DNA of 64,000 nucleotides from Bacteroidales bacterium (GTDB lineage Bacteria; Bacteroidota; Bacteroidia; Bacteroidales; 4484-276), in contig JACZJL010000085.1 in NCBI GenBank assembly GCA_014860585.1, positions 1-64,000 on the forward strand, given 5' to 3'. Positions 10,723 to 40,251 of the stretch are shown here, piece after piece. The notes under the pieces were generated by a model that worked only from the letters and a program-made list of their open reading frames with translations, was not told the origin of the DNA and did no database searches. Numbering within the stretch: position 1 is the first letter of the stretch; every line of letters begins with the position of its first letter. A program made the translations under genes and the position numbers.

Positions 10723-12543
10723 TTACTTTTCTGCTTTAAAAACAACTGCCCTCAGATTTTTATCGAGCCATTGATTGATCATTGCCCTGAACTCATTGTA
10801 TTCTTCCGGATGAATGAAGGTTTCGCTGATTCTTATTTCCCGGGTTATCTCTACCTGGTTTTCCTTTGGCTTAATATCAATACTTACTGATCCTGCTTCA
10901 CTTTTAAAACGGTCGCCTGTGCGCTTGTTTACAAAAACATAACCATCCGGTAGCTCAATTGTATAAACATATTTTTCTGTGATTGGGAAAGGTATTACGA
11001 AGGGGTCTTTTCTGGTGCTTTCGAGATAAGTAATCCGCCACCTGTCGAAACCATTGGTCATGTTTGGCAGCATCCAACGATAATAACCTGACTGTTCGGT
11101 AACGGGTTTATTGTTTTCAGCCTTGAATGTGAGTGTTGATTTTGCAATATTACTATTGACAACCTGAATAGTACTGTCATTCTTAATCAGATCGCCGGTT
11201 AACATGGATTTTATGCTGTTTTTATCTTCCTGCAAGGCAAGGAAAGGGTTAGCAGCACCGGAGAGTACCAGGTCAACCTGGCCAGAAGCCTTCAGTTCAG
11301 CATCAAATGTAATTTTTGCTGTATAAATAATCTCGTTATCCATCTTAGCAGGTTCAACAGGAGAGGCTGCTGCATCTTTTGAAAGCGGTATCACCACAAC
11401 CTGTGCCAGGCTATATTCAAGGCTTTGGCTATCCGTTGTAACAGCGGATAAATAAATTGTCCCGAATCCTTTGGTATTAGCCATCACGGCGATATCGTCA
11501 AAAAGAGAAAGGTTGCCTGAATTGACATCAAAAAATTGCTGTGGGGCAATGAGCACCGGCACAGCATTGAAATTGGCATAACCGAGCAGTGCTGCAAGCA
11601 GGATGGATTTTTCCAGCTTACTTCCTCCATTGCTTTTCCAAACTTCCACTGGTTGTCTCACCTGATATCCGAGCCATGAAGGATCATACCTTTCGTAAAC
11701 TATATTTCCTGTAACTTCCTTTTGGATGGCAAGCAGCGTTTTTATCTCATCAGTTTGTTTTGCTTTTATGCTGTCCACTAAACTTTTCATTTGATCGTTC
11801 ATTTCAAAATTGAAAGTCTGTTGCCTGGTGATCCAGTTGACCACATCTGCTGTGGTTCCAGCTGTAGTGAAGGAAAGCCGTGGAGTTGCCGGCTGGAATT
11901 TTCCACGGAATTGTTCTTTTGGAGAAGCCTGCAATCCGGTGAATTTCCAGGTATACACCTTCTGGCTCCCAACCACCATAATTTCCGGCGCAGTTCTTAA
12001 TCCCGTCATCCTGTGATTTAGCTCAACATCGGGCGGGACTTTAACATTGACCTCCATATCGAGCACCGGGGATGATTCCTCAATAATTACCGTACCCATC
12101 AGCCCGGGCGTGAACCCTTTGGCTGAAGTCAGGGTATAGTCGAGATAAATGGTGGCGCCGATCTCAAGTGCTGTATGCGTGACCACCATTTCGCGAAGGT
12201 GATTGGCGGTAGCCGAAAGGGCGGCGTTACGCGGTAGCACTTCATTGAAGGCATTTTCCGGAGTTTCAATCTTTGTGCTGTCGGCCATAATGGTGTAGGC
12301 TTCATTTATTGTCAGCTTTTGAAATTCTGGATTGTAAATGATAAAGGTTTCACCATAAAGACGATTGAACGAAAGATGTGTTTTCAGTTTCAACTGTTTT
12401 ACTTCCCTGAAACTTGTGCTGCCGTCGTTTTCGAGTGTATATTCCCGGATCAGCTTTTCATACACAGCATCGGCATTTTCAGTTTGTGCAAAAGTTATAT
12501 TGACGAATAAAAATGCGGCTAAGGATAGAATAATCTGTTTCAT
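10723..12543 (-). CDS. Exported DUF3857 protein with degenerate transglutaminase-like domain
   Basis: A 606-residue protein from the ATG at 12543 (MKQIILSLAAFLFVNITFAQ, signal peptide); the frame from 12567 adds eight residues. An N-terminal DUF3857 beta domain (about 30-240) is followed by a transglutaminase-like fold (about 250-370). The active-site segment reads NGGSKLEKSILLAALLGYAN where the paralogous gene 12595-14544 has GVCKDKAALLISFLRMAGFE, so the catalytic Cys is absent, and the matching His/Asp positions are not recognisable. C-terminal domain is beta-rich. Probably periplasmic and non-enzymatic. It lies 51 bp downstream of its apparently active homologue, likely in one operon. Confidence 0.8.
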   Translation of the reverse strand: MKQIILSLAAFLFVNITFAQTENADAVYEKLIREYTLENDGSTSFREVKQLKLKTHLSFNRLYGETFIIYNPEFQKLTINEAYTIMADSTKIETPENAFNEVLPRNAALSATANHLREMVVTHTALEIGATIYLDYTLTSAKGFTPGLMGTVIIEESSPVLDMEVNVKVPPDVELNHRMTGLRTAPEIMVVGSQKVYTWKFTGLQASPKEQFRGKFQPATPRLSFTTAGTTADVVNWITRQQTFNFEMNDQMKSLVDSIKAKQTDEIKTLLAIQKEVTGNIVYERYDPSWLGYQVRQPVEVWKSNGGSKLEKSILLAALLGYANFNAVPVLIAPQQFFDVNSGNLSLFDDIAVMANTKGFGTIYLSAVTTDSQSLEYSLAQVVVIPLSKDAAASPVEPAKMDNEIIYTAKITFDAELKASGQVDLVLSGAANPFLALQEDKNSIKSMLTGDLIKNDSTIQVVNSNIAKSTLTFKAENNKPVTEQSGYYRWMLPNMTNGFDRWRITYLESTRKDPFVIPFPITEKYVYTIELPDGYVFVNKRTGDRFKSEAGSVSIDIKPKENQVEITREIRISETFIHPEEYNEFRAMINQWLDKNLRAVVFKAEK

Positions 12544-12594
12544 TTTATTTTGTGTTAATGCATTCATAATCTGGAATTTTGGAAGATTTGGCGG

Positions 12595-14544
12595 TTATTT
12601 TTTTAAGACAATTGGGGAGTCGGCCATTTTTTTCTGGGCTTTAACGGCTGATCTCATTTCAGGCCAGTCGCTGGCTTGATAAACCCGTTTCTCAAGAAGG
12701 ACTTCCTGTTTGAGTGCAATGGTATTGTTCTTTGCCTGGTAACCACCATTGTAGTAAGCCGAACAACCCAGTGAAGTTGTGTTCACATCTGGCAAAACGG
12801 GGGAGTATCCTGCGGGTATGGTAATCGTCTCATCCAGTTCTACCATGCGGCTGCAACGGTCGCGGAAATCAAATTTGCGTTCTTCGAGGTCTGTATTCAT
12901 GTAAAGATGACCCATGGCACGGCTCATGAAATTGGTGGCTAAGAGCGGAATAAAGATGAGCTCATTTTCTCCGGTAAATGCATAACCCGGAATGCGGTAA
13001 CTGATTTTGATGTTGATCGGCCCTGCCATATAATCTATCGGATCTCCGTAATCCATGGCGATGATCTCGGCCGCCGGATGTATTCTTAACAATTCTGCTT
13101 CGACACCTTTGTTCCACTCCGATTTATAATCGCGGGTGAAAATACCCCGAACTGCTGCATCAGTTTGTCCTTCGGCTTCCAGTACCATTTGTCCTTCCAG
13201 GGTTCCATCGGTTTTCAGTTCGGATGTTGCTTTGATTTTGAGGTAATGATTTTCGGAGGGCGAAACAGGTGTGATGGCCAGGTCGGCTCCTTCGGGTAGC
13301 CCCATCAGGTAATTTTGTTGCTGTTCGGCGCTTGACCATAGCTCCCTGACAAAAGGAACCCAGGTTGGATCGAGGAGGTGGTATTCGCCATCAGAAAGTT
13401 TTACAACGGTTACGCTGTGATTAAAATGATCGGCGGGAATATCTTCGATTCGGGAACCGGCCATGGTCATGGCTGCATAAGATTCAAAACCTGCCATACG
13501 CAGGAATGAGATCAGCAAAGCTGCTTTGTCTTTGCAAACGCCACAACGGTCGCGGAAATTCATGGCGGTGTTGTGCAGGGTAAATCCCTCGCCCGGCCCC
13601 ATCGAAATCCCTGAATAGCGCATGTTATCGGCCACCCAGTGGGTAAGTATCGAAACGCTGTCCATTTCTGTTTTGGCAGGCTTGAGCAATTCCTTTACAA
13701 AAGCTTCCGCTTCGGGGGTTGGGTCAAAACTTCCGTAATCTTCATTTACACCGTAAAACCAGCGTGATTTTGCCTCCCAGTCAGGGCTGGTGGTTAACAG
13801 CAGTTTGGGAGCTATGTCAAAAAAATCAACCATATTGGGTTCGGCTTTGATGGGCATGATATCCTTTTTTGAAAATGTATAAACATGCTTCCCATCCACA
13901 AACCGCAATGTTGTCTTGCATTCACCGTGGAAAAACTCATATTGCAGCGGCTTGTCTGCTGGTACATGGGTGATGTAAACCTTTTCGAGTATCGGATGAG
14001 AACTCCAGAAAGGGATGATATCGTAAAAATGCCCTCGCATAGGGGGAATGAACCGCTCCTCATCGTCTTGCATCAGCAGGGCGTATGTAAATCCTTTTTT
14101 AAAATACTTGACTTCAACGGCATCGCCAGGTTCAAGCCTGCCCACCTCGATCATTTTTTCGCGGGCGCCCCAATAGATGGCGCGGGCAGGCGCCGGATAA
14201 TCACGTACTCCGCCAAGATCCACATTTTCAACCGTCCCGTCCTTCCTGTATATTTTTATCAACAGGATATCAAGGGCGGCTGACAATGGGTCGTAATCAA
14301 TCTTAATCACCCGTTGCTCTGAAGCGCCTTTGGGGGTGAGCACCTTCGTTAACTGATGCATGTGGAAATAACTCAGGCCGGTCTCCTGAACATCCACCCT
14401 GGTGCTGTCGAACAGGATGAGCAGGTTGCTTCCTTTGTAATCAGCGGCATTTCCTGAGTTTTTGATCAAATCTTCAATCGGGCCGGCGTTCAGGATCAGC
14501 CCGGCAAATAGTATAACAAGCAGTGAGGTAAATTTTTTAAGCAT
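12595..14544 (-). CDS. Exported DUF3857 and transglutaminase-like protein
   Basis: A 649-residue protein with a signal peptide (MLKKFTSLLVILFAGLILNA). DUF3857 spans about 45-200 (SEQRVIKIDYDPLSAALDIL region). The transglutaminase core spans about 290-410 with a complete Cys-His-Asp triad: RDRCGVCKDKA (second Cys), DHFNHSVTVV, and YHLLDPTW. Such proteins may cross-link, deamidate or proteolyse peptides or act in an unknown periplasmic process. First gene of a minus-strand pair with the degenerate homologue 10723-12543. Upstream at 14573-14580, TACTTTAG is one base off a -7 box. Confidence 0.87.
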   Translation of the reverse strand: MLKKFTSLLVILFAGLILNAGPIEDLIKNSGNAADYKGSNLLILFDSTRVDVQETGLSYFHMHQLTKVLTPKGASEQRVIKIDYDPLSAALDILLIKIYRKDGTVENVDLGGVRDYPAPARAIYWGAREKMIEVGRLEPGDAVEVKYFKKGFTYALLMQDDEERFIPPMRGHFYDIIPFWSSHPILEKVYITHVPADKPLQYEFFHGECKTTLRFVDGKHVYTFSKKDIMPIKAEPNMVDFFDIAPKLLLTTSPDWEAKSRWFYGVNEDYGSFDPTPEAEAFVKELLKPAKTEMDSVSILTHWVADNMRYSGISMGPGEGFTLHNTAMNFRDRCGVCKDKAALLISFLRMAGFESYAAMTMAGSRIEDIPADHFNHSVTVVKLSDGEYHLLDPTWVPFVRELWSSAEQQQNYLMGLPEGADLAITPVSPSENHYLKIKATSELKTDGTLEGQMVLEAEGQTDAAVRGIFTRDYKSEWNKGVEAELLRIHPAAEIIAMDYGDPIDYMAGPINIKISYRIPGYAFTGENELIFIPLLATNFMSRAMGHLYMNTDLEERKFDFRDRCSRMVELDETITIPAGYSPVLPDVNTTSLGCSAYYNGGYQAKNNTIALKQEVLLEKRVYQASDWPEMRSAVKAQKKMADSPIVLKK

Positions 14545-14653: not shown

Positions 14654-14686
14654 AAAAAAAGCCCCTGCGAAAGCAGAAGCTTTTTT
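14654..14686 (-). terminator. Rho-independent terminator after paralogue 1
   Basis: GCTTCTGC, GNRA-like loop, GCAGGGGC flanked by T-runs on both strands. Lies about 90 bp past the stop of the gene at 14774-16681 and could act in either direction. The stem sequence resembles the terminator at 18923-18957. Confidence 0.6.
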
Positions 14687-14712: not shown

Positions 14713-14776
14713 TAGTGTCAGTAGAAAAACATCCTGTATTTGATTTTCAACAAATGGTGTTTTCCTGCTGACACTA
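14713..14776. repeat. Hairpin element with CCTG.ATTTGATTTTCAACA core, member A
   Basis: Arms TAGTGTCAG and CTGACACTA pair perfectly, then AGAAAAAC with GTTTTCCT with small mismatches. The loop carries CCTGTATTTGATTTTCAAC. The right arm contains the stop codon of the adjacent gene. A second member with the same core but a different stem is at 27703-27758. Confidence 0.75.
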
Positions 14777-16681
14777 TTTAACAATCATTTTGCGGGTGGC
14801 TGTCTCATTGCCTGCTGTTACAGTGTAGAAATAAACTCCGGAGTTAAGTCCTGAAGCGTCAAATGACAAGAAATGACTACCGGGTTGTAATGATTTTGCA
14901 GGAATTGTCAACACTTTCTGTCCGGTTAGATTAAACACTTCAATTCCAACAAGGTTAGGTTGTGTAATTTCGACAGTTACCTGAGTATTGCCGCCCGTTG
15001 GGTTGGGGTAGCTTTGTGAAACAGAAAGTGCAGTTTCAACCGGTTTCGGATCATTGACACCAACAGTGAATTCCATTGAATTGTGGATCACCCTGTTGAT
15101 CACCGGATCATGATCTTCGTCAAGGAAAAGACCGGGGATATTATCGGCCTGGTAGATCAACTGGAAGGCGCCTTCCGGGGAAGTATTTGGCGCCAAAACA
15201 GGGTAAATACACTCATCGTAAAGGTGGAAAATATTTCCTGCCTGAAGATCAAAGAATGTACCCCAGGTTTGTCCTAAGTCGTAGGAAAACCTTGTCCAGA
15301 TGTGTTTGTAATTGTACAAGCCATCAGCGGTTACATATGTCTCGGTTGTTGAGGCATAAGCAAGCGCTATCATACCATCATGAATAGCAATGGTTGGCAT
15401 GGTGGAAATACCCAGGGAACGATAAACTCCAAAGGGTGTTTCTGCCGTGCCCTCAAAGTCAAAAATGAAACCGCTGTTGTTCACGTCCTGGGTCCAGCCG
15501 ATCAACATGCCGAGGCTTTCAAGGTATTCGGGCATCATGGTGTGATGTGGGTTGTCGGCTTCGGGAATTTGCCCCATACTTTCGTTCCAGTAACCGATTC
15601 CGTCAGTGTATGGCCAGTAAGAGTAAAAACCCGGATCGGGAGGGGCTGCGGCCAGACGAGCTACACGACCAATCCCCCAAACTACGTGAACCATACCGTT
15701 GTCATCAATAGCCAGATTGGCTGAATTATCAACTGAATAAAGCGTATCCGGCATCAGGGTCGTATTGAAATCGAAGAAAGGGTAGGGGTGTTCCCAGATG
15801 ATTGTCTTTTCCCATGTTTCACCCATATCAGTCGATTTCATCATAAAAAGGTCGAACCATGCACTTGACCCAAGCAGTACAACAATATTTCCTTTTGAAG
15901 CCATCACATAATCATCAGCATTGATTTGCAAATAATAGTCTGATCCCACCCCTTCAAGCACTTCATCCTGGATGTCCCAGGTTTGGGTGTCTTTTGAATA
16001 GCGCGAATAGAGAATTGCGGTTGTTTGCCCCTGGTATACCGAATTTGTGTTATAGAACATATTCAGGTAATTATTGTCCGGACCGCTTGTTACTACACGT
16101 GGCCATGCCGGCTGCAATCCACCACCCGGGCCGGAATATATAAATTGCTGCCATGGTCCTGTCCCTTTATTTTCGCGGTGGTTTAAAACAATCTCAACAT
16201 TGAAGTTATGAGATACCACTATTTCACCGGTCTCACCCCATGGCGCAATATTTGGCCATCCTGTTCTTTTGGTCTCAATCCTTGCGGTAGGTTTGGGGCC
16301 CCATGCAGTTCCATCAAAATAGTTGTATCCTGTGCCTCTGTCAGGAAAAGCAAATCCTGTCGGATTTTCAACTCCACGGGTACAGGTTGCAGCCATCGTG
16401 CCATCTTCCCATACCCAGAACCGGTTGGAAAGATTTGCATTAGATTGTAAATCGTACACCGTTTCGATGATTTCTGTTTCATCGCCAAGTAATCTCCCAT
16501 CTTTTATTACACCGGGAGTTGTATAGTTGTGGTTTGTCATGGGGTAAGTCAGGTCTGATGGGACCGTATGTTGCCTGATTACAGCAATCTTACTGAGTCC
16601 ATTCACAACTGTTGCCCGCTCCTGGGCGAAACCAGATGAAAGGAATCCGATGGTCAAAAGAAGAATAAAAACTTTTTTCAT
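14774..16681 (-). CDS. Secreted Asp-box beta-propeller protein with T9SS tail, paralogue 1
   Basis: A 635-residue exported protein: signal peptide (MKKVFILLLTIGFLSSGFAQ), a long beta-propeller-like region, and a T9SS type A sorting domain (about 560-635: SQSYPNPTGG ... SGVYFYTVTAGNE, ending RKMIVK). Two Asp-box (sialidase/BNR) motifs are clear, STDMGETW and SYDLGQTWG; a third, present in the other three copies, is broken here to SKDTQTW. The block ARLAAAPPDPGFYSYWPYTD and the following GIGYWNESMGQIPE are nearly invariant in all four copies. Sialidase Arg-triad and FRIP motifs are not seen. Likely cell-surface or extracellular; substrate unknown. Confidence 0.85.
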   Translation of the reverse strand: MKKVFILLLTIGFLSSGFAQERATVVNGLSKIAVIRQHTVPSDLTYPMTNHNYTTPGVIKDGRLLGDETEIIETVYDLQSNANLSNRFWVWEDGTMAATCTRGVENPTGFAFPDRGTGYNYFDGTAWGPKPTARIETKRTGWPNIAPWGETGEIVVSHNFNVEIVLNHRENKGTGPWQQFIYSGPGGGLQPAWPRVVTSGPDNNYLNMFYNTNSVYQGQTTAILYSRYSKDTQTWDIQDEVLEGVGSDYYLQINADDYVMASKGNIVVLLGSSAWFDLFMMKSTDMGETWEKTIIWEHPYPFFDFNTTLMPDTLYSVDNSANLAIDDNGMVHVVWGIGRVARLAAAPPDPGFYSYWPYTDGIGYWNESMGQIPEADNPHHTMMPEYLESLGMLIGWTQDVNNSGFIFDFEGTAETPFGVYRSLGISTMPTIAIHDGMIALAYASTTETYVTADGLYNYKHIWTRFSYDLGQTWGTFFDLQAGNIFHLYDECIYPVLAPNTSPEGAFQLIYQADNIPGLFLDEDHDPVINRVIHNSMEFTVGVNDPKPVETALSVSQSYPNPTGGNTQVTVEITQPNLVGIEVFNLTGQKVLTIPAKSLQPGSHFLSFDASGLNSGVYFYTVTAGNETATRKMIVK

Positions 16682-16722
16682 GTTGGTAAGTTTTTGGTGA
16701 TTGATAAAAATGATTGTGAAGA

Positions 16723-16738
16723 CAAAAGTACAAAAATA
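16723..16738 (-). promoter_or_regulatory. Two adjacent -7 boxes for paralogue 1
   Basis: On the minus strand TATTTTTG (16731-16738) and TACTTTTG (16723-16730) both fit TAnnTTTG, 42-57 bp before the start at 16681. A TTTG at 16752-16755, inside the left arm of the 150-bp element, sits at a -33-like distance from the second box. Confidence 0.5.
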
Positions 16739-16742
16739 TTAA

Positions 16743-16892
16743 AGGCTGTCTCAAAAGTCTTTCATTTGGATTTTCAACGTTTTTTGACCCTTGATCCCTA
16801 AAGTGAAAACGTTGAAAATCAGGCTCCCTTTAGGGACGGGGTACTCCTGATTTTCAACGGTTCGGGTTAAATCCAGACTTTTGAGACAGCCT
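16743..16892. mobile_element. 150-bp MITE-like element with 18-bp perfect terminal inverted repeats
   Basis: Begins AGGCTGTCTCAAAAGTCT and ends with its exact reverse complement. The interior has nested repeats: GATTTTCAACG occurs twice forward and once inverted (CGTTGAAAATC), and CCCTAAAG pairs with CTTTAGGG. No coding capacity. The ends look like transposon termini, so a non-autonomous element is likely; a target-site duplication was not evident. It separates paralogues 1 and 2. Confidence 0.7.
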
Positions 16893-16918
16893 CTTTTACT
16901 GTCAGGAAGTGTAAGTAT

Positions 16919-18850
16919 TTACTTCACAACCATCTTCTTCGAAACCTTTTCGCTGCCGGTTGTAACGGTGTAGAAATATACGCCGGGTTTCAGTACTGAT
17001 GCATCAAAGCTCAGATTGTGGCTGCCTTGCTGCAGGTTTATGGCAGGAATATCCACCACCTTCTGACCGGTTGCGTTTATAATTTCGAGGCCAACTAAAG
17101 CAGGTTTATCTAGAATAACATTGATTTGAGTGATTCCTGTTGCCGGGTTGGGATAATTCTGAGCTACCGATATGCTGTTGTTTTGCTCAGGGGAATCAAT
17201 CCCAACAAGCCACCATAAACGGTTATGAATAATCCGGTTAATCACCGGGTCATGATCTCCGTCGAAAGCATAGATCCCCGGAATGTTATCAGCATTGTAA
17301 ATCAGATTAAATGACCCACCTGGATCGGGTTTATCAGCCAGTACCGGATAAATACACTCATCGTATAAATGGAAGATATTGTCGGCATTCATGTCAAGAA
17401 AATCACCCCAGGTTTGTCCCAGATCATAGGATTGTCTCAGCCAGAGGTGCTTGTAGTTCATGGTACCGTCGGCAGTGACGAATGTTTCCGTGACGGATGA
17501 ATAAACAAGCGCAATATAGTTGTCGTAGATGGCAATAGTTGGCATGCAGGAGATTCCAAGCGACCGGTACACATTGAAAGGCGTTTCGGCCGTTCCTTCA
17601 AAATCGAAGATAAATCCGCTGTTGTTCACATCCTGTGTCCACCCGATCAACATTCCCAATTCTTCAAGATTTTCGGGCATCATGGTGTGGTGTGGATTAT
17701 CGGCTTCGGGGATTTGACCCATACTTTCGTTCCAGTAACCAATGCCATCAGTGTAAGGCCAGTAAGAATAGAAACCCGGATCGGGGGGCGCCGCAGCAAG
17801 CCTTGCAACACGGCCAACACCCCAAACTACGTGCACCATCCCGTTGTTGTCAATGGCCATGTTTGCTGAGTTATCGCAGGCATAAAGCGTATCGTCCATC
17901 AGCGTGGTGTTGAAATCAAAAAATGGGTAGGGATGTTCCCAAATAATGGTTTTTTCCCAGGTTTCTCCGTTATCCATTGATTTGAGAATAAACATATCCG
18001 ACCAGGCGCTTCCATGCAGCATCACCACCATATCTCCTTTTGAGGCCAATGCGTAGTTGTCGGAACTGAAACTGGTATAAAAGTCTGATCCGAGGCCGTC
18101 AATCAGTTCAGCCTGGATATCCCAGGTTTGGCCGGCGTCAGATGAGCGGTAATAAAGCAAAGCGCCATCCTGTCCCAGGTAAGGGGTGCCGCCGTTACCA
18201 CTGGGTGCCGTCATTACAAATACATGCACAATGTTGTTGTCGGGGCCGCTGGTGACCACTCTTGGCCAAAGCAATCCGGTAGATCCGGCCGGAGCAGGAG
18301 CAAATTCAGTTTGAGTCCATGCGCCGGTTCCCTTTGTTGCGCGGTAATTAACAATCATTGGCGCTGTTCCCGAAACGTGTGCCACCACGATTTCACCATT
18401 TGGACCAAGTGGGGCAATGGATGGCCAGCCGGTTCTTACTGTTTCAATACGAGCGGTGGGTTTTGGCCCCCATGAAATCCCATCAAAATAGTTGTAACCT
18501 GTTCCCCTGTCAGGAAATGCATTGTTGGTAGGGTTTTCCACGCCGCGAATGCAGGTAGCAGCCATAGTGCCATCTTCCCAAACCAGGAACCGGTTGGCAA
18601 GGCTTGAATTGCTCTGCAGGTCAAAAACTGTTTCGATAATCTCGGTTTCATCGCCAAGAAGTCTTGCGTCCTTCATTTTTCCGGGAGCAATGTAAATGGG
18701 ATTGAGCATTGGGGGAGGGATGTCGGCAGGAACATCAAATTTCCTGGTTAGCGACATTTTGGTCAGTTCCTTGTCGGCAGGTATCCGGCTTTGGGAATAA
18801 CCTGCAAAGAGGAATCCTAAAACAATTAACGATAAGAATAAATGCTTCAT
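16919..18850 (-). CDS. Secreted Asp-box beta-propeller protein with T9SS tail, paralogue 2
   Basis: A 643-residue protein with signal peptide (MKHLFLSLIVLGFLFAGYSQ) and T9SS sorting domain (AQNYPNPATGITQINV to KMVVK). Three Asp-boxes are present: SSDAGQTW, SMDNGETW and SYDLGQTWG. Nucleotide differences from its neighbours in the best-conserved block are mostly at third codon positions, so the conservation reflects protein-level selection rather than very recent copying. Upstream at about 18890-18897 CGAAAATA is one base off the -7 box. Flanked by the 150-bp element downstream and a terminator upstream (that of paralogue 3), so it is probably its own transcription unit. Confidence 0.85.
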   Translation of the reverse strand: MKHLFLSLIVLGFLFAGYSQSRIPADKELTKMSLTRKFDVPADIPPPMLNPIYIAPGKMKDARLLGDETEIIETVFDLQSNSSLANRFLVWEDGTMAATCIRGVENPTNNAFPDRGTGYNYFDGISWGPKPTARIETVRTGWPSIAPLGPNGEIVVAHVSGTAPMIVNYRATKGTGAWTQTEFAPAPAGSTGLLWPRVVTSGPDNNIVHVFVMTAPSGNGGTPYLGQDGALLYYRSSDAGQTWDIQAELIDGLGSDFYTSFSSDNYALASKGDMVVMLHGSAWSDMFILKSMDNGETWEKTIIWEHPYPFFDFNTTLMDDTLYACDNSANMAIDNNGMVHVVWGVGRVARLAAAPPDPGFYSYWPYTDGIGYWNESMGQIPEADNPHHTMMPENLEELGMLIGWTQDVNNSGFIFDFEGTAETPFNVYRSLGISCMPTIAIYDNYIALVYSSVTETFVTADGTMNYKHLWLRQSYDLGQTWGDFLDMNADNIFHLYDECIYPVLADKPDPGGSFNLIYNADNIPGIYAFDGDHDPVINRIIHNRLWWLVGIDSPEQNNSISVAQNYPNPATGITQINVILDKPALVGLEIINATGQKVVDIPAINLQQGSHNLSFDASVLKPGVYFYTVTTGSEKVSKKMVVK

Positions 18851-18922
18851 AGTAAAATGTTTAAATGGTTAGTAAATAATTTGAGGTGCGAAAATACAAA
18901 AAAGAAATGATGTTCATAAAGC

Positions 18923-18957
18923 AAAAAAGGCCTCTGCATTGCAGAAGCCTTTTTTTT
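18923..18957 (-). terminator. Rho-independent terminator after paralogue 3
   Basis: Near-perfect stem AAGGCTTCTGC / GCAGAGGCCTT on the minus strand with a short loop and T-runs on both sides; 17 bp after the stop of 18974-20911. Confidence 0.75.
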
Positions 18958-18973
18958 ATTTTGTGGAGTTCAA

Positions 18974-20911
18974 TTACTTCACAATCATTTTGCGGGTAAC
19001 TTTTTCGCCACCGGCATTAACTGTGTAAAAATAAACGCCTGAAGTGAATTGAGAAGCATCGAAAGTAATTTCGTTGATGCCGGCATTCATGTTTCTTGCC
19101 TGAATTTCATACACTTTTTGTCCGGTCATATTGAATACTTCAAAACCAACTGTTGAAGGCTGAGCGAGTTCAACTGAAACGCTTGTAGTTCCGGTAGTTG
19201 GGTTTGGAACACTCTGTGAAACATTGACTGATGAAACTTGCTGTGTTGGGTTTTCGATACCAACAGTGAAGCTCATCGAATTGTGGATTACCCGGTTGAT
19301 TACAGGATCATGATCTTCGTCAAGATAGAGACCAGGAATGTTGTCAGCCTGATAAATCAGCTGGAATGCGCCATCCGGGTTGGTATTTGCAGCCATCACC
19401 GGGTAAATACACTCATCATAGAGGTGGAAAATATTATCACCCACAATGTTTTGGAAATCACCCCATGTTTGTCCCATGTCATAGGAGAAGCGAGCCCAGA
19501 TATGTTTGTAGTTCTGGGTTCCGTCGGCGGTTACAAAAGTTTCGGTGGTTGAAGCATAGGCCAGTGCCATCATGTTACCGTTGATTGCAAGAGTTGGCAT
19601 TGTGGAAATACCCAATGAACGGTAAGTGGCAAATTGCGGATCGCCGGTTCCTTCATAGTCAAAAATGAAACCGCTGTTGTTTACGTCCTGTGTCCAGCCA
19701 ATCAACATACCAAGTGTTTCAAGGTATTCCGGCATCATGGTTTTATGCGGATTATCATTTTCAGGAATTTGTCCCATGCTTTCGTTCCAGTAACCAATAC
19801 CATCAGTATAAGGCCAGTAGCTGTATGAACCTGGATCCGGAGGAGCAGCTGCAAGACGTGCAACCCGGCCGATTCCGAATACTACGTGAACCATACCATT
19901 GTCGTCAATGGCAAGATTACCTGAATTATCAACAGCATAAAGTGTATCATCCATCAAGGTAGTTTGCATATCAAAGAAAGGATAAGGATGTTCCCAGATC
20001 ATGATTTTATCCCATGTTTCACCGTTATCCGTTGATTTCATTACAAACATGTCAATCCATGCGCTGGTCAATAACAAAGCAACCGTGTTACCTTTTGATG
20101 CTAAAACATAATCATCAGCACTGATATCAAGGTAAAAATCGGCGCCCATTCCTTCAAGATTCACGTGCTGGATGTCCCAGGTTGCGCCACCATCGGTTGA
20201 ACGGTTGTACAACATGCAGCCATCCTGACCTAACCATGGTGTTCCGCCATTGGCTGATGGTGCAGTCAGACCGAACAGATGTACGTACTCGTTATTTGGT
20301 CCTGAGGTAGCCATTCTTGGCCATAAATATTGAGGAATAGCAGTTCCGGCAGGACCATTATAAGTTGTCTGTGTCCATGCACCGGTACCTTTTGTAGCAC
20401 GGCTTGAAATCACCATAGGTGCAGTACCTGAAACGTGACCGCAAATAATTTCACCATCAGCGCCCCATTTTGCAATGGAAGGCCAGCCTGTTCTGGTAGT
20501 TTCAACTCTTGCTGTGGGTTTTGGTCCCCAGGTTGAGCCATTGAAATAGTTGTAACCTGTTCCCCTGTCAGGGAAAGCAAAGCCTGTTGGGTTCTCAACG
20601 CCGCGTGTACAAACAGCCGCCATTGTTCCGTCTTCCCATACAACAAACCTGTTACCAACAGTGGTGTTAGACTGCAGATCATACACCGTTTCGATAATTT
20701 CTGTTTCATCGCCAAGCAGCCTGGCATCTTTCATCAGACCAGGGGTGGTATAGGTCGAATTGACCATCGGCGGAACCGGATCAACAGGTACATTGTAGAA
20801 CCTGGTTACTGACTTGTTAATTAACTCGTTTGATGCAGGAACAGCACGTTGCTGTGCAAACCCGATCAAAACAATGCTCATCGCGAAAACAATTAGTAAT
20901 GCTTTTTTCAT
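18974..20911 (-). CDS. Secreted Asp-box beta-propeller protein with T9SS tail, paralogue 3
   Basis: A 645-residue protein: signal peptide (MKKALLIVFAMSIVLIGFAQ), propeller region, and T9SS sorting domain (SQSVPNPTTGTTSVSV to RKMIVK). Asp-boxes are STDGGATW, STDNGETW and SYDMGQTWG. A slight variant of the conserved block reads GQIPENDNPHKTMMPE where the others have His in place of Lys (HHTMMPE). Has its own -7 box and its own strong terminator, so the array is made of separately transcribed units, not one operon. Confidence 0.85.
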   Translation of the reverse strand: MKKALLIVFAMSIVLIGFAQQRAVPASNELINKSVTRFYNVPVDPVPPMVNSTYTTPGLMKDARLLGDETEIIETVYDLQSNTTVGNRFVVWEDGTMAAVCTRGVENPTGFAFPDRGTGYNYFNGSTWGPKPTARVETTRTGWPSIAKWGADGEIICGHVSGTAPMVISSRATKGTGAWTQTTYNGPAGTAIPQYLWPRMATSGPNNEYVHLFGLTAPSANGGTPWLGQDGCMLYNRSTDGGATWDIQHVNLEGMGADFYLDISADDYVLASKGNTVALLLTSAWIDMFVMKSTDNGETWDKIMIWEHPYPFFDMQTTLMDDTLYAVDNSGNLAIDDNGMVHVVFGIGRVARLAAAPPDPGSYSYWPYTDGIGYWNESMGQIPENDNPHKTMMPEYLETLGMLIGWTQDVNNSGFIFDYEGTGDPQFATYRSLGISTMPTLAINGNMMALAYASTTETFVTADGTQNYKHIWARFSYDMGQTWGDFQNIVGDNIFHLYDECIYPVMAANTNPDGAFQLIYQADNIPGLYLDEDHDPVINRVIHNSMSFTVGIENPTQQVSSVNVSQSVPNPTTGTTSVSVELAQPSTVGFEVFNMTGQKVYEIQARNMNAGINEITFDASQFTSGVYFYTVNAGGEKVTRKMIVK

Positions 20912-20955
20912 AGTTTTTAATGTTTAAATTAGATTTATAATGTTGATTACGTCGG

Positions 20956-20963
20956 CAAAAATA
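20956..20963 (-). promoter_or_regulatory. Bacteroidetes -7 box for paralogue 3
   Basis: TATTTTTG on the minus strand, 45 bp before the start at 20911. Confidence 0.45.
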
Positions 20964-20998
20964 GAAAAATCAAATAACATTCAATGTTTTTATGACCA

Positions 20999-21018
20999 AA
21001 ACTCAATATATTGAGTTT
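20999..21018. repeat. 20-bp perfect palindrome
   Basis: AAACTCAATATATTGAGTTT reads the same on both strands. It directly abuts the hairpin at 21019-21056. Could be a dimeric regulator site or part of a compound terminator. Confidence 0.6.
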
Positions 21019-21056
21019 GAACATGGGCTTCCAGAAGATACCGGAAGCCCATGTTC
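21019..21056 (-). terminator. Strong hairpin after paralogue 4
   Basis: Perfect 14-bp stem GAACATGGGCTTCC / GGAAGCCCATGTTC with a 10-base loop, 7 bp past the stop codon of 21064-22980. No T-run follows on the minus strand, so termination may need the adjacent palindrome or another factor. Confidence 0.6.
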
Positions 21057-21063
21057 TATACTC

Positions 21064-22980
21064 TTATTTAACAATCATCTTCCTGGTAATGGTCTCGCTG
21101 CCATTTGAAACGGAGTAAAAATATACACCTGAAGTAAGCCCTGAAGCATCAAACCTCAGATTGTGGCTACCGGCATTCACTGATTTTGCAGGTAGTTCAA
21201 ATACTTTTTGGCCGGTCATGTTAAAAACTTCCACACTTACAGTAGCCGGATTTGTCACTTCAACAATGATGTCAGTTACCCCACTGGTTGGGTTGGGATA
21301 GCTTTGAGAAACTGTGAGTGCCCTCGCATCTGCCTGAGGTTCGTCAATCCCGATGGTGTAATCCATCTTATTGTGAATGATCAGGTTAATCAATGGTTCA
21401 ACTTGCATATCGTCATCGATCAGGTACAATCCGGGTGAGTTGTCAGCATTATAGATCAGATGGAAGACTCCATCTTCAGTTGTATTTGCTGCTACAAGCG
21501 GCCACAGGCATTCATCATACAAATGAAAAATATTACCGGTCTGAAGATCAGTAAATCCACCCCAGGTCTGACCGAGGTCGTAAGAAAATCTGGTCCAAAT
21601 ATGCTTGTAGTTGTACATTCCATCTGCAGTGATAAATGTTTCGGTTGTTGACGAATAAGCCAATGCGATCATATTGCCATGAATAGCAATGGAAGGCATG
21701 GTAGAAATTCCCAGCGAACGGTAAACTGCGAAAGGTGTTTCAGCAGTACCTTCATAGTCAAAAACAAGACCGCTGTTATTTACATCCTGGGTCCAGCCAA
21801 TCAACATTCCCAACGATTCAAGGTACTCTGGCATCATGGTGTGGTGAACATTTGGAGCATCAGGAATTTGTCCCATACTTTCGTTCCAGTAACCGATACC
21901 ATCGGTAAAAGGCCAGTAGGAATAGCTCCCCGGTGCAGGCGGGGCAGCTGCCAGACGTGCAACACGTCCAAGACCGAATACAATGTGAACCATTCCATTG
22001 TCGTCGATGGCAAGATTTCCTGAATAGTCAACGGCATACAAGGTGTCGGGCATGAGGGTGGTGTTAAAGTCAAAAAATGGATAGGGATGCTCCCAGATCA
22101 TAATTTTTTCCCAATTTTCTCCATTATCAGTGGATTTTAGTATGAACATATCGGCAAAAGCATCGGTGTAAAGCATGGCAACAGTATTGCCTTTTGATGC
22201 AAGCACATAAGCATCTGCCCTGATATCAGTGTAACTGTCAGATCCTAATCCGGGTAAAATCTCATCTTCAGGAAACCATGTTACACCGCCGTCTTCCGAG
22301 CGAGAGTAAAGCAATGCATTGTCCTGTCCCTGATAAAGATTGTATGAACTATAAAAAAGGTGAATGATCTCGTTGTTTTCGCCAGTTGTGGCCAAACGAG
22401 GCCAGGTTGGTTCAACGGTACCGCCAGGTCCGGGGTAATTAACGCGCTCCCATGCATCAACACCTTTATTTTCACGCTTGTAAATCGTTAGGATGTAAGG
22501 AGCACCCATAGTGTGAGCCACTACCATTTCTCCGTTTGGTCCCCAGGGAGCTATGCTTGGCCATCCGGTAGCCACATTCTCAATTCTGGCTGTAGGTTTG
22601 GGACCCCATGTGGATCCGTCGAAATAGTTGTAACCTGTACCTCTGTCACTCCAGTTGGATGAAATCATACCCCTGGTAGCAGTTGCAGCCATAGTTCCAT
22701 CTTCCCAAACCCAAAAACGATTACCGATAGAAGAGTTTGTTTGAAGGTCATACGCTGTTTCCATGAGTTCGGTTTCCACCCCTGCCAGCGAAGCATCCTT
22801 CAATGATGGAGCAGTGGCAAAGTTGAAATTCACAATGGGTACCAATGGTTCCTTTAACTGCGAATATTTTCTCTCTACTGATTTGTTGGCCACCTCTTTT
22901 GAGAAAGGTACTCGTTTTTGCTGTGCAACACTCATTAGTGCAAAGCAAACTGTAAATGCTAAAAGTAAAATTTTCTTCAT
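21064..22980 (-). CDS. Secreted Asp-box beta-propeller protein with T9SS tail, paralogue 4
   Basis: A 638-residue protein: signal peptide (MKKILLLAFTVCFALMSVAQ), propeller region, T9SS sorting domain (SQSYPNPTSGVTDIIV to RKMIVK). It is the most diverged of the four: RGMISSNWSDRGTGYNYFDG replaces the RGVENPT..FPDRGTGYNYF of the others, the second Asp-box is STDNGENW (Thr to Asn), and a C-terminal loop reads DDDMQVEPLINLIIHNKM where the others have DEDHDPVINRVIHN. The first box (SEDGGVTW) and third (SYDLGQTWG) are intact. It has its own -7 box. Confidence 0.85.
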   Translation of the reverse strand: MKKILLLAFTVCFALMSVAQQKRVPFSKEVANKSVERKYSQLKEPLVPIVNFNFATAPSLKDASLAGVETELMETAYDLQTNSSIGNRFWVWEDGTMAATATRGMISSNWSDRGTGYNYFDGSTWGPKPTARIENVATGWPSIAPWGPNGEMVVAHTMGAPYILTIYKRENKGVDAWERVNYPGPGGTVEPTWPRLATTGENNEIIHLFYSSYNLYQGQDNALLYSRSEDGGVTWFPEDEILPGLGSDSYTDIRADAYVLASKGNTVAMLYTDAFADMFILKSTDNGENWEKIMIWEHPYPFFDFNTTLMPDTLYAVDYSGNLAIDDNGMVHIVFGLGRVARLAAAPPAPGSYSYWPFTDGIGYWNESMGQIPDAPNVHHTMMPEYLESLGMLIGWTQDVNNSGLVFDYEGTAETPFAVYRSLGISTMPSIAIHGNMIALAYSSTTETFITADGMYNYKHIWTRFSYDLGQTWGGFTDLQTGNIFHLYDECLWPLVAANTTEDGVFHLIYNADNSPGLYLIDDDMQVEPLINLIIHNKMDYTIGIDEPQADARALTVSQSYPNPTSGVTDIIVEVTNPATVSVEVFNMTGQKVFELPAKSVNAGSHNLRFDASGLTSGVYFYSVSNGSETITRKMIVK

Positions 22981-23028: not shown

Positions 23029-23036
23029 CAAAGATA
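23029..23036 (-). promoter_or_regulatory. Bacteroidetes -7 box for paralogue 4
   Basis: TATCTTTG on the minus strand, 49 bp before the start at 22980. Confidence 0.45.
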
Positions 23037-36688: not shown

Positions 36689-38464
36689 ATGGAAAACAAA
36701 ATTTCTGTAATGGTATTGGGGTTTCTTTTTCTGACCATTTCGGCGCAACCTCAAATTCTGTCCTATAGCCGTGTTACCTCAGGATTTAATGTTCCAACTT
36801 TTGAGGGAGGCCGCAGCGATTTCCATTTCTGCGACATCAATGAGGACGGGCATGTTGATATTATTTCCATTGGCGATCACGGAAATCCAAACATCGGCTC
36901 TACCCAGGAAGGACTGTTGATATGGTTCAACCAGGGTGACGGCAGTTTTCAGAACTTTATGACCGGCTATTTCGGCTATGGCGGCATTGTAGCCGGTGAT
37001 GTGAATAACGACGGCTTCAAAGATATTGGGTTTGGAATGCACCATAATTATTCCACTACCAGCTTTGGTGATCAACTGATCGAAGTAGCTTTGGGCGATG
37101 GTACCGGTCAGGGTTGGACACCCTGGGATGTTGGATTGGCTACAAACGGCGAAACATGGGGCATGTTCGGGACTGATTTTGGGGATGTAAATAACGATGG
37201 CTTCCTCGACCTGGTCAGCATTTCGTTCGGTTCAGGAGCGGGAATGCACGTTTACATCAATCAGGCCAATGGCGCCTGGATTCCCAGTTTCGGATTTCTT
37301 GGAAACAATTCTGATCAACTTGTTCAATTTTGCGACATCAACAATGATGGTTTTATGGATATTATTGCCGGTCACGCGCAGGGAACAGCTTATTTTGGAG
37401 ACGGTTCCGGAAGTTTTGTAAAAAACGATACCGGACTACCTGCTGTGGGAGAATTTTCGCCAAGATACGGGATTGCAGTGGGCGATGTAAATAATAATGG
37501 CGGCAGCGGGTTTGCCTATGTTACCAGTGGTGGCGGTATTAAAGTTTTTGAGTGGGACAATGATGACAACATCTGGACTGATTATTCCGGTAATTTACCG
37601 ACTGCAGGAAGTTACGATCTTGCCCAGCTTTACGATATGAATGCCGATGGATTTATGGATGTGATGGCTTATGGCGGACGAACTTTCCAACTGTGGTTAG
37701 GGAATGGCGTAGGCAACTGGATCGCAGATGCAACTTTTCAGACCGACAATACACCCGGCTCTGCCAAAGCCTTCAGGGTTGGCGGTGATTTGAATAAAAA
37801 CGGGCATGGCGATATTGTGCTTCTTACCCAGGAAGGAACATGGATCAACTACAAAAACTACCTCTATGTTTATGCCGAAAATGACACACCCGAAAACGTC
37901 TGGATAAGATCACTTTACCCGAAAGGAAATGAAAATTTTTATCCCGGATCGGTCCGGTTTATTCGATGGGCATCTGCGATTCCAAACGGGGATTCTTCGT
38001 CAGTTAAGGTCGAAATTTCTATTTTCGGACCTACCGGACCCTGGTGGCTTGTGGCCGATAATCTTCCCAATAATGGCAAATACCAATGGACGGTTCCAAA
38101 CTACGGCTCTGATGAGTGTTATCTAAAACTTACTGTCAGTGATGGTATTGAAGAAATGTCCTCCGTTATCGATGCTCCTTTCATCATTATTGGAGAGCCA
38201 ACAGCAGTATCCAAAAAACCAGTTTCATTTGATGCAGCGGTTTACCCAAACCCGGGAAATCAAATCCTGATGATCAATACCATTCAGCCGGTTAAGCAAT
38301 TTGTGCTGATGAATAGCCTTGGGCAAACAGTTCTTGACATTGAAAATCCACCAGTTACTTTGAATGTTTCTGCCCTTCCTCCCGGGTTGTATTTTTATAA
38401 AATTCAGATGAATAATGGCAATTCGCTTAATGGGAAATGGGTGAAAAGCAAAGTATCAAATTAG
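36689..38464 (+). CDS. Secreted FG-GAP/VCBS propeller protein with T9SS tail, copy 1
   Basis: A 591-residue exported protein: signal peptide (MENKISVMVLGFLFLTISAQ), then about seven FG-GAP/VCBS-type repeats with calcium-binding loops of the DxNxDG form (DINEDGHVD, DVNNDGFKD, DVNNDGFLD, DINNDGFMD, DVNNNGGSG, DMNADGFMD, DLNKNGHGD), consistent with a seven-bladed propeller (residues 40-380). A Kre9/KNH-like domain follows (about 405-500, YPGSVRFIRW ... NGKYQWTVPN), then a T9SS sorting domain (VYPNPGNQ ... GLYFYKIQ). Cell surface or secreted, likely adhesive or carbohydrate-related. Twelve bases upstream of a paralogue. Confidence 0.88.
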   Translation: MENKISVMVLGFLFLTISAQPQILSYSRVTSGFNVPTFEGGRSDFHFCDINEDGHVDIISIGDHGNPNIGSTQEGLLIWFNQGDGSFQNFMTGYFGYGGIVAGDVNNDGFKDIGFGMHHNYSTTSFGDQLIEVALGDGTGQGWTPWDVGLATNGETWGMFGTDFGDVNNDGFLDLVSISFGSGAGMHVYINQANGAWIPSFGFLGNNSDQLVQFCDINNDGFMDIIAGHAQGTAYFGDGSGSFVKNDTGLPAVGEFSPRYGIAVGDVNNNGGSGFAYVTSGGGIKVFEWDNDDNIWTDYSGNLPTAGSYDLAQLYDMNADGFMDVMAYGGRTFQLWLGNGVGNWIADATFQTDNTPGSAKAFRVGGDLNKNGHGDIVLLTQEGTWINYKNYLYVYAENDTPENVWIRSLYPKGNENFYPGSVRFIRWASAIPNGDSSSVKVEISIFGPTGPWWLVADNLPNNGKYQWTVPNYGSDECYLKLTVSDGIEEMSSVIDAPFIIIGEPTAVSKKPVSFDAAVYPNPGNQILMINTIQPVKQFVLMNSLGQTVLDIENPPVTLNVSALPPGLYFYKIQMNNGNSLNGKWVKSKVSN

Positions 38465-38475
38465 CGCATGGAAAA

Positions 38476-40251
38476 ATGAAAACTTACTCCTTCACCTGTT
38501 TGTTCATCACAGCATTATTGCTGCATGGAGTTCTCTTTGGGCAAAAAACACTTTCTTACAGCAGGGTCACCAATGGCCTTGGAATTCCCGAATTTGAAGA
38601 GGGAAGAACTGATTTTGCACTGGATGACATCAATATGGATGGACATCTCGATTTACTTTCTGTTGGCGATCACGGTTCGCCGTTTTTCAACTCCGACCAG
38701 CATGGCATTATGGTTTGGTTTGGTGATGGACAGGGCAATTTTCAGAATTTTTCGAACGGACAATTTGGCTATGGGGGTATTGCCGTTGGAGATGTGAACA
38801 ACGATGGATATAAAGATGTCGGTTATGGCGTGCATCACAACTATTCGGGAACGAACTGGGGAGACCAGCTGATAGAGGTTGTCCTGGGCGATGGCACGGG
38901 AATGAACTGGACGTCATGGGATGAAGGGCTGGCGACCAATGGAGAAACCTGGGGCATGTTTGGAACGGCTTTCGCCGATTTTAACAATAACAGCCTTCTC
39001 GATCTGGTAAGTATTTCCTTTGGCTGTTGTTCCGGATTGCAGGTTTATTTGAACCAGTCGGACGGAACATGGGTAAATTCCTTTGGATTTCTTAATGGCA
39101 ATACTTCCCTGCTTGTCAGGGTATTCGACATAAATAAAGATGGGTTTATGGACATCATCAGCGGGCACCAGTACGGTACGGTATATTTTGGCGATGGAAC
39201 GGGCAATTTCATCAATAATGACAGCGGTTTGCCGGGAGCCGGAAATACAGCCAGGGCCGGATTTGATGTGGCCTATTTAAACCCTGAAGCGTTAACCGGT
39301 ATTTCATTTACCAACTCTTCCGGTGGTGTTTTTGTCTATTCATGGAATCATGGGTCTTCAGGCTGGCAAAACTTGTCAGGTACTCTCCCGGCTTCCGGAA
39401 CTTATCAGATGACCCAACTTTGTGATATGAACAGTGACGGTTTTGCCGATGTGATGGCTTTCGGTAACCGGAACTTCAAACTTTGGCTTGGCGATGGCGC
39501 CGGAAACTGGACTCCCGATGCTACTTTCATGACCGACGGAAACCCGGGATTAGGAAGAGCAATGAGAACCGGCGGCGACTTTGACAATAACGGCTACGCT
39601 GACCTTGTGATTCTTGCGCAGGAATTGTCGGGAGGGTGGATTCAGTTTGATAAAAACTTCCTTTACGTTTATTTCGAAAATAATCCGGCTGAATCGTTGT
39701 GGATAAAAGCGGTTTACCCATTAGGTTCCGAAACGTTCTATCCCGGTTCGGTGCGTTTTGTTGAGTGGCGATCGGCTGTGCCGGGGAATGTTTTTTCGAC
39801 TGTAAAAATCGAAATTTCAGCACTCGGACCAGATGGTCCCTGGTGGCTGGTGGCTGAAAATCTCCCCAACAATGGCAAACATCAATGGATAGTACCCGAT
39901 TATGGATCGGAAGATTGTTATTTGCGGTTTACAGTTAACACTGACGATGAATCGGCTTCAACAATCACAACAACCCCATTCCACATTCCTGGCGAGCCAA
40001 CTGCCGTAAAATTAGCAAACAAAAAAAATCAGGTAACTGTTTATCCCAACCCCGGTAGCGATTTCATTTCAATAAGCTGTAAAGATCCAGTTTTTAACCT
40101 GACTTTAATAGACATTCACGGGCGCATTGTGCTTGAATTAACCGACCCTAATCTGCAGGTTAATGTAAGTGGGTTGTCACCGGGGATTTATTATTTTGAT
40201 GCAAAATTGGCGGATAAAAGCAGGGTGCGCGGGAAATGGATAAAGTATTAA
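38476..40251 (+). CDS. Secreted FG-GAP/VCBS propeller protein with T9SS tail, copy 2
   Basis: A 591-residue paralogue of the preceding gene, with the same order: signal peptide (MKTYSFTCLFITALLLHGVLFG), FG-GAP repeats, a Kre9/KNH-like domain and a T9SS sorting domain (VYPNPGSDFISI ... GIYYFDAKL). The ATG at 38476 gives a clean signal peptide; the longer frame from 38437 would overlap the upstream gene. Calcium loops are weaker than in copy 1 (DINMDGHLD, DVNNDGYKD, DFNNNSLLD, DINKDGFMD, AYLNPEALTG, DMNSDGFAD, DFDNNGYAD), with one blade losing the loop. A Cys pair (FGCCSG) is unique to this copy. Its 3' end overlaps the helicase by 4 bp. Confidence 0.87.
   Translation: MKTYSFTCLFITALLLHGVLFGQKTLSYSRVTNGLGIPEFEEGRTDFALDDINMDGHLDLLSVGDHGSPFFNSDQHGIMVWFGDGQGNFQNFSNGQFGYGGIAVGDVNNDGYKDVGYGVHHNYSGTNWGDQLIEVVLGDGTGMNWTSWDEGLATNGETWGMFGTAFADFNNNSLLDLVSISFGCCSGLQVYLNQSDGTWVNSFGFLNGNTSLLVRVFDINKDGFMDIISGHQYGTVYFGDGTGNFINNDSGLPGAGNTARAGFDVAYLNPEALTGISFTNSSGGVFVYSWNHGSSGWQNLSGTLPASGTYQMTQLCDMNSDGFADVMAFGNRNFKLWLGDGAGNWTPDATFMTDGNPGLGRAMRTGGDFDNNGYADLVILAQELSGGWIQFDKNFLYVYFENNPAESLWIKAVYPLGSETFYPGSVRFVEWRSAVPGNVFSTVKIEISALGPDGPWWLVAENLPNNGKHQWIVPDYGSEDCYLRFTVNTDDESASTITTTPFHIPGEPTAVKLANKKNQVTVYPNPGSDFISISCKDPVFNLTLIDIHGRIVLELTDPNLQVNVSGLSPGIYYFDAKLADKSRVRGKWIKY

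Follow-up and report, generated by a model that had tools for sequence, protein, structure and literature searches.

The four genes and the predicted export of their products

The stretch of DNA analyzed here (the window) comprises 64,000 nucleotides (nt) of contig C85, which belongs to the 4.7-Mb draft genome of a Bacteroidales bacterium. A first-pass annotation, made from the letters alone, had described four paralogues of 635 to 645 residues on its minus strand. Four neighboring open reading frames (ORFs) of 635, 643, 645 and 638 codons are present at exactly the positions listed in Table 1 (copies 1 to 4). Their products carry a signal peptide, a single β-propeller with Asp-box motifs and a C-terminal sorting domain of the type IX secretion system (T9SS). 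They belong to a widespread family that is unnamed and unstudied, although each of its elements is of a known type. A search of the genome for additional copies, which the annotation had proposed, yielded no propeller domain of this type beyond the four in the window.

In all four proteins, the profiles PF18962 and TIGR04183 (T9SS type A tail) exceeded the Pfam and NCBIfam cut-offs. As read from the sequence, each protein starts with a Sec signal peptide without lipobox, which ends in the Ala/Ser-Gln junction of the Bacteroidetes. The glutamine at the expected cleavage site (position 20 in copy 3) is kept in 95 of 95 aligned relatives, in line with the Bacteroidetes Q-rule (PMC5837995). Thus, the combination of signal peptide, Asp-boxes and T9SS tail that had been noticed in each copy was corroborated. 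T9SS genes, on whose presence the annotation had made its reading depend, also occur in the genome, which encodes SprA (2584 bits), two PorU sortases (1345 and 1262 bits) and at least 150 T9SS tails. The four proteins are presumably secreted: each would be exported by Sec, its signal peptide cut before the glutamine, and the type A tail would then direct it through the T9SS across the outer membrane to surface anchoring or release. The two full-length PorU genes lie next to each other (G000:C28:12345-19505).

Asp-boxes, central block and predicted fold

The Asp-box motif XX(S/t)X(D/n)XGX(T/s)(W/f/y) is placed between the two outer strands of propeller blades (PMC2716378). Blades 3, 4 and 6 contain boxes that agree with this definition, except for the blade-3 box (SxDGGxTW) of copy 1, in which the D and the G are substituted; the reported loss of the first box in this copy was hence correct. 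Copy 4 had been said to have changed its second box. It reads ENW instead of ETW in blade 4, but Asp-boxes in general show only partial conservation there (PMC2716378). The blade-6 box (SYDxGQTW), absent from the earlier list, is intact in all copies. A near-invariant central block had been described as well. Identity between the copies amounts to 76-96% in alignment columns 301-450, compared to 27-42% in columns 1-50 and 39-68% in columns 151-250. This part of the description holds, except that most of ARLAAAPPDPG is not conserved outside the genus, and in the alignment of relatives the family-wide conservation of the block starts at DGIGYWNE.

The structure prediction suggested by the annotation was performed with AlphaFold2. 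With 95 full-length sequences a predicted local distance difference test score (pLDDT) of 89.3 was reached, while the propeller of copy 3 alone gave a pLDDT of 93.7 and a predicted template modelling (TM) score of 0.94. The strand order obtained by DSSP fits seven four-stranded blades, of which blade 7 is completed by the strand that opens the domain. In the model, blade 5 contains a long insertion with a helix in place of an Asp-box. The top Foldseek matches were the PL42 enzyme FoRham1, Bacteroides GH145/PL42 proteins, the putative neuraminidase BACOVA_03493 (4irt), a pseudaminidase, PL25 and the PHL/PLL lectins; sialidases also matched. Identity to the nearest folds was 8-12%. These matches of a predicted model establish the fold class, not the family or the function. 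A search of the PDB by sequence revealed no whole-domain relatives, only Asp-box blades and the tail; the local matches of the profile include Asp-box blades of GH74 enzymes and sialidases. A viral structure library returned generic propellers only.

In propeller enzymes, the D-A and B-C loops make up the face on which the active site usually lies. Using the DSSP strands and counting residues as conserved if shared by at least 85% (weighted) of the sequences, Asp-boxes excluded, at least 20 conserved charged, histidine or aromatic residues were found in D-A loops or adjoining strand ends. Among them are D78, R88, E137, H159, R199, Y260, D266, D287, E307, D322, D409, Y430, E457, H496, E500 and D523, all of which are unchanged in the four copies, as are nearly all residues of the wider set. 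By contrast, conservation is lowest in the B-C loops, in the family as a whole as well as among the copies, where 41% of their positions are invariant versus 57% in the D-A loops. Much of this variation falls in blades 1 to 3, and many of the differences, an indel among them, are located in the B-C loops of blades 2 and 3. Such a distribution would agree with a single conserved site surrounded by a variable rim. The annotation had recommended looking for a cluster of charged residues; they do appear to gather at the loops of the expected active-site face, the face itself being deduced from topology.

Age of the copies

At the protein level, any two of the copies share 60-68% of their residues. 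In each of the six pairwise comparisons, about 62-66% of the four-fold degenerate sites are different, and no identical stretch of DNA reaches 35 nt. It follows that the central block was kept by selection on the protein and not by recent conversion, as the annotation had assumed when it spoke of older duplicates under protein-level selection. Gene conversion of the block is ruled out by these two findings.

In a tree of 95 members, each window copy pairs with a different copy of a sister species (supports 98-100). The partner of copy 4 is L055:5864-7771, that of copy 3 the L030 copy, which is the central gene in the L055 array, that of copy 2 L055:9994-11922 and that of copy 1 L054. L055 retains the order 4-3-2 adjoining dnaE. 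These one-to-one orthologues imply that the duplications are older than the genus and that four distinct genes have been retained. Together with the divergence at four-fold sites and the lack of identical 35-nt runs, they also rule out a recent tandem amplification or an assembly artefact. The idea that the family is diversifying by duplication therefore has to be abandoned as a description of an ongoing process: the four copies are stable orthologues, and their diversification is an old event.

Distribution of the family

When the four proteins and 11 relatives were compared with Pfam and NCBIfam, no profile reached its cut-off over the propeller. The scores for BNR_2 and BNR (Asp-box) were too low (BNR_2 17.6-23.8 bits versus 31.4), and a weak local match to the NCBIfam 'choice-of-anchor O' proteins (NF040591) gave 24 bits, the cut-off being 125. 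Accordingly, no profile search placed the four proteins in a characterised family; such a placement would have refuted the annotation. With a profile of the domain, members were detected in 33 of the 148 related genomes searched, a single genome containing as many as nine. The peptides VWEDGTM and WEHPYPF served to find 61 loci in a species-level genome collection, nearly all of them in metagenome-assembled genomes (MAGs) of Bacteroidales or other Bacteroidota. A sample of the whole phylum gave 56 of 396 genomes, a number that includes weak local matches, many of them generic Asp-box matches only; distant members occur in other classes. A Lentimicrobium MAG and a MAG labelled 'Sphingobacteriia' are among the close relatives that carry the family; their loci coincide with those found in G001 and G002, two genomes of the same genus.

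Altogether, 110 distinct near-full-length ORFs of Bacteroidales and other Bacteroidota were gathered, a few of which are cut at contig ends. The complete ones carry a signal peptide and a T9SS-like tail, with one or two exceptions that are fused or have an odd frame. Some members are longer, such as one in L105 with a PKD-like region (just below the Pfam cut-off) before the tail. Tandem arrays of two to five genes are common (five in L069, five in L111, four in L097).

A second unnamed family of Asp-box T9SS proteins (approximately 670 residues; 'family B') is interleaved in the arrays of other genomes (L060:5673-7688, L061, L067, L075, L087, L092 and L104). Its profile match to the first family is weak, local and confined to the Asp-box blades (hhalign probability 64%). 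The last 45 residues, i.e. the T9SS tail, of the family B protein L075:8068-10110 and of its first-family neighbor (the same protein as L040:1426-3282) look identical, which suggests that tails may have been exchanged by recombination within this array. Three tandem members in L068, a MAG assigned to Candidatus Tenebribacter (Cloacimonadota), are nested among Bacteroidales in the tree and would reflect either a transfer or a mis-binned contig.

Possible function

We see about an even chance that the four proteins are exported seven-bladed Asp-box propellers which act on or bind glycans through one conserved site with varied rims. Carbohydrate is favored as the ligand because the top fold matches are nearly all carbohydrate-active or lectin propellers. 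The mature part would form one propeller whose conserved polar floor, expected on the D-A/B-C face, binds and probably processes carbohydrate. Since this site is common to the four copies but the blade 2 and blade 3 loops are not, the glycans on which they act, or which they bind, are probably related without being the same.

Several points weigh against this reading. The fold matches are moderate, with TM-scores of at most 0.52 (query) and 0.63 (target). The face bearing the conserved residues was assigned from strand order and topology, not from coordinates, and the conservation of D94, E307, H308 and their neighbors is inflated, as VWEDGTM and WEHPYPF served as search peptides. No known catalytic constellation was matched when the histidine pair of lyases and the RIP motif of sialidases were checked. 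Moreover, the flanking genes, in the window dnaE and genes for DUF3857/transglutaminase proteins, look like housekeeping genes in this and other genomes rather than a polysaccharide-utilisation locus.

A more specific version is tentative and rather doubtful: the proteins may constitute an undescribed family of carbohydrate-active enzymes with catalytic residues of its own, kept by T9SS Bacteroidales as tandem sets with one mechanism and different specificities. Candidate catalytic residues (copy 3) are E137, H159, D266, D287, D409, E457, D499, E500, D523, R88 and R199. This shortlist and the four natural variants make functional testing straightforward. The family is common in uncultured Bacteroidales, nameless in two main profile libraries and encoded in tandem arrays that are ancient and have been maintained stably; should its members prove to be enzymes, bacteria known mostly from metagenomes would gain a further family of carbohydrate-active enzymes.

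It is also conceivable, though on the whole unlikely, that the proteins are non-catalytic surface lectins or adhesins that hold the cell to glycans of other cells, granules or polysaccharide. The PHL/PLL lectins of Photorhabdus are single seven-bladed propellers that carry repeated sugar-binding sites between their blades and gave some of the highest target TM-scores (0.58-0.63), and multi-copy arrays without surrounding utilisation genes would suit a surface coat. However, no sequence similarity to these lectins was found, they are not T9SS cargo, and their blades are repeated while those of the window proteins are dissimilar in sequence. The conserved carboxylates and histidines also exceed what a simple lectin site needs.

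Exo-sialidases or related nonulosonic-acid hydrolases of the GH33 type are improbable. They are suggested by the subthreshold BNR_2 matches, the many sialidases among the fold matches and the local profile matches to GH33 Asp-box blades, but BNR_2 stays under its cut-off and the local matches are confined to generic Asp-box blades. GH33 propellers have six blades and an Arg-Ile/Leu-Pro motif with the first arginine of a triad, besides an acid/base Asp and a Tyr-Glu pair, while the window family has seven blades by DSSP strand order. Its conserved arginines lie in the contexts NRF, DRG and WPR; neither R-I-P nor R-L-P occurs there, in agreement with the annotation, which had seen no sialidase motif.

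Uronate lyases of the PL24/PL25/PL42 type have a similarly small chance. The best fold matches were those to the PL42/former GH145 group (FoRham1, BT3686, BACINT_00347), where the best E-values were obtained, and to BACOVA_03493; these proteins share the single seven-bladed propeller, the Asp-box and members in Bacteroidota; the PL25 ulvan lyases (5uam, 5uas) share the fold. On the other hand, target TM-scores to the PL42/GH145 group do not exceed 0.62, and no whole-domain sequence homology to it was detectable. Active sites of these lyases comprise two histidines about 20 residues apart, a tyrosine and an arginine (PMC8377490). No such pair is formed by the columns with at least 70% histidine (159, 211, 308, 342, 470 and 496), the catalytic pair of PL42/GH145 was not found, and the His123/His143/Tyr188/Arg204 set of PL25 has no counterpart by spacing. 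The proposed 'glycan-binding or lyase-like' character is therefore retained at the level of the fold, but not for the lyase signature. GH74 xyloglucanases gave the best local sequence matches, over two Asp-box blades, but possess two seven-bladed propellers per protein instead of one. As the hallmarks of PL24/25/42, GH33 and GH74 are lacking, the proteins cannot be filed in these families, though they may work like other glycan-active propellers. It is very improbable that the proteins serve the T9SS or gliding, as a component or an accessory, instead of being cargo that has a ligand: β-propellers do occur in PorZ, a T9SS protein (PMC8545088, PMC5121618), but a component would hardly be found in 33 of 148 and 56 of 396 genomes (weak matches included) and in up to nine copies.

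Table 1. Positions of the genes, domains, motifs and putative transcription signals in the window
Feature	Position	Strand	Remarks
Copy 1	14774..16681	-	Seven-bladed Asp-box propeller of 635 aa without the blade-3 Asp-box; predicted to be secreted as T9SS type A cargo
Copy 2	16919..18850	-	Same propeller family, 643 aa
Copy 3	18974..20911	-	Same propeller family, 645 aa; used in structure models
Copy 4	21064..22980	-	Same propeller family, 638 aa; first in transcription direction, divergent from dnaE
Propeller domain, copy 3	19265..20728	-	Residues 62-549, seven blades
Propeller span, copy 1	15065-16501	-	Homologous to copy 3 domain
Propeller span, copy 2	17207-18670	-	Homologous to copy 3 domain
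Propeller span, copy 4	21355-22797	-	Homologous to copy 3 domain
Near-invariant block, copy 3	19592..19861	-	Main part, residues 351-440
Blade-3 Asp-box, copy 3	20177..20200	-	S238-W245
Blade-4 Asp-box, copy 3	20012..20035	-	S293-W300
Blade-6 Asp-box, copy 3	19463..19486	-	S476-W483
T9SS sorting domain, copy 1	14780..15010	-	C-terminal
T9SS sorting domain, copy 2	16925..17155	-	C-terminal
T9SS sorting domain, copy 3	18980..19207	-	C-terminal
T9SS sorting domain, copy 4	21070..21300	-	C-terminal
-7 boxes, copy 1	16723..16738	-	Two TAnnTTTG boxes side by side, 49 and 57 nt upstream
-7 box, copy 2	18889..18896	-	TATTTTCG, imperfect
-7 box, copy 3	20956..20963	-	TATTTTTG
-7 box, copy 4	23029..23036	-	TATCTTTG
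Hairpin after copy 1	14655..14686	-	Terminator-like, with T-run
Hairpin after copy 3	18921..18957	-	Terminator-like, with T-run
Hairpin after copy 4	21019..21056	-	Long, without T-run

Transcription signals and neighboring genes

TAnnTTTG is the consensus of the -7 box of Bacteroidota-type promoters. Strict boxes were detected 49-57 nt upstream of the start codons of copies 1, 3 and 4 (expectation about 0.05 per 100 nt) and an imperfect one upstream of copy 2, which bears out the claim that at least three copies have a promoter box of their own. Terminators had been assigned to copies 1 and 3, and hairpins with T-runs follow both genes. Judging from these signals, it is likely that the copies are transcribed separately, at least in part. 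A sigma-70 scan gave 15 matches compared to 19 in shuffled sequences, the sigma-70 model being uninformative for this phylum.

Between copies 2 and 1, a repeat of approximately 150 bp (window positions 16743-16892) with the terminal inverted repeats AGGCTGTCTCAAAAGTCT was found. It resembles a miniature inverted-repeat transposable element and occurs in the genome in about ten near-full copies and many partial ones. Only a few bases separate the end of the repeat from the copy 1 promoter boxes, and the repeat may have replaced the upstream half of this promoter.

Downstream of copy 1, two adjacent genes on the minus strand (10723-14544) encode exported DUF3857 proteins, one with a transglutaminase-like core. 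The window contains a second tandem pair of secreted propeller-type proteins with T9SS tails, in this case with FG-GAP repeats (36689-38464 and 38437-40251, plus strand). Paired T9SS propellers are thus not unique to the four-gene array.

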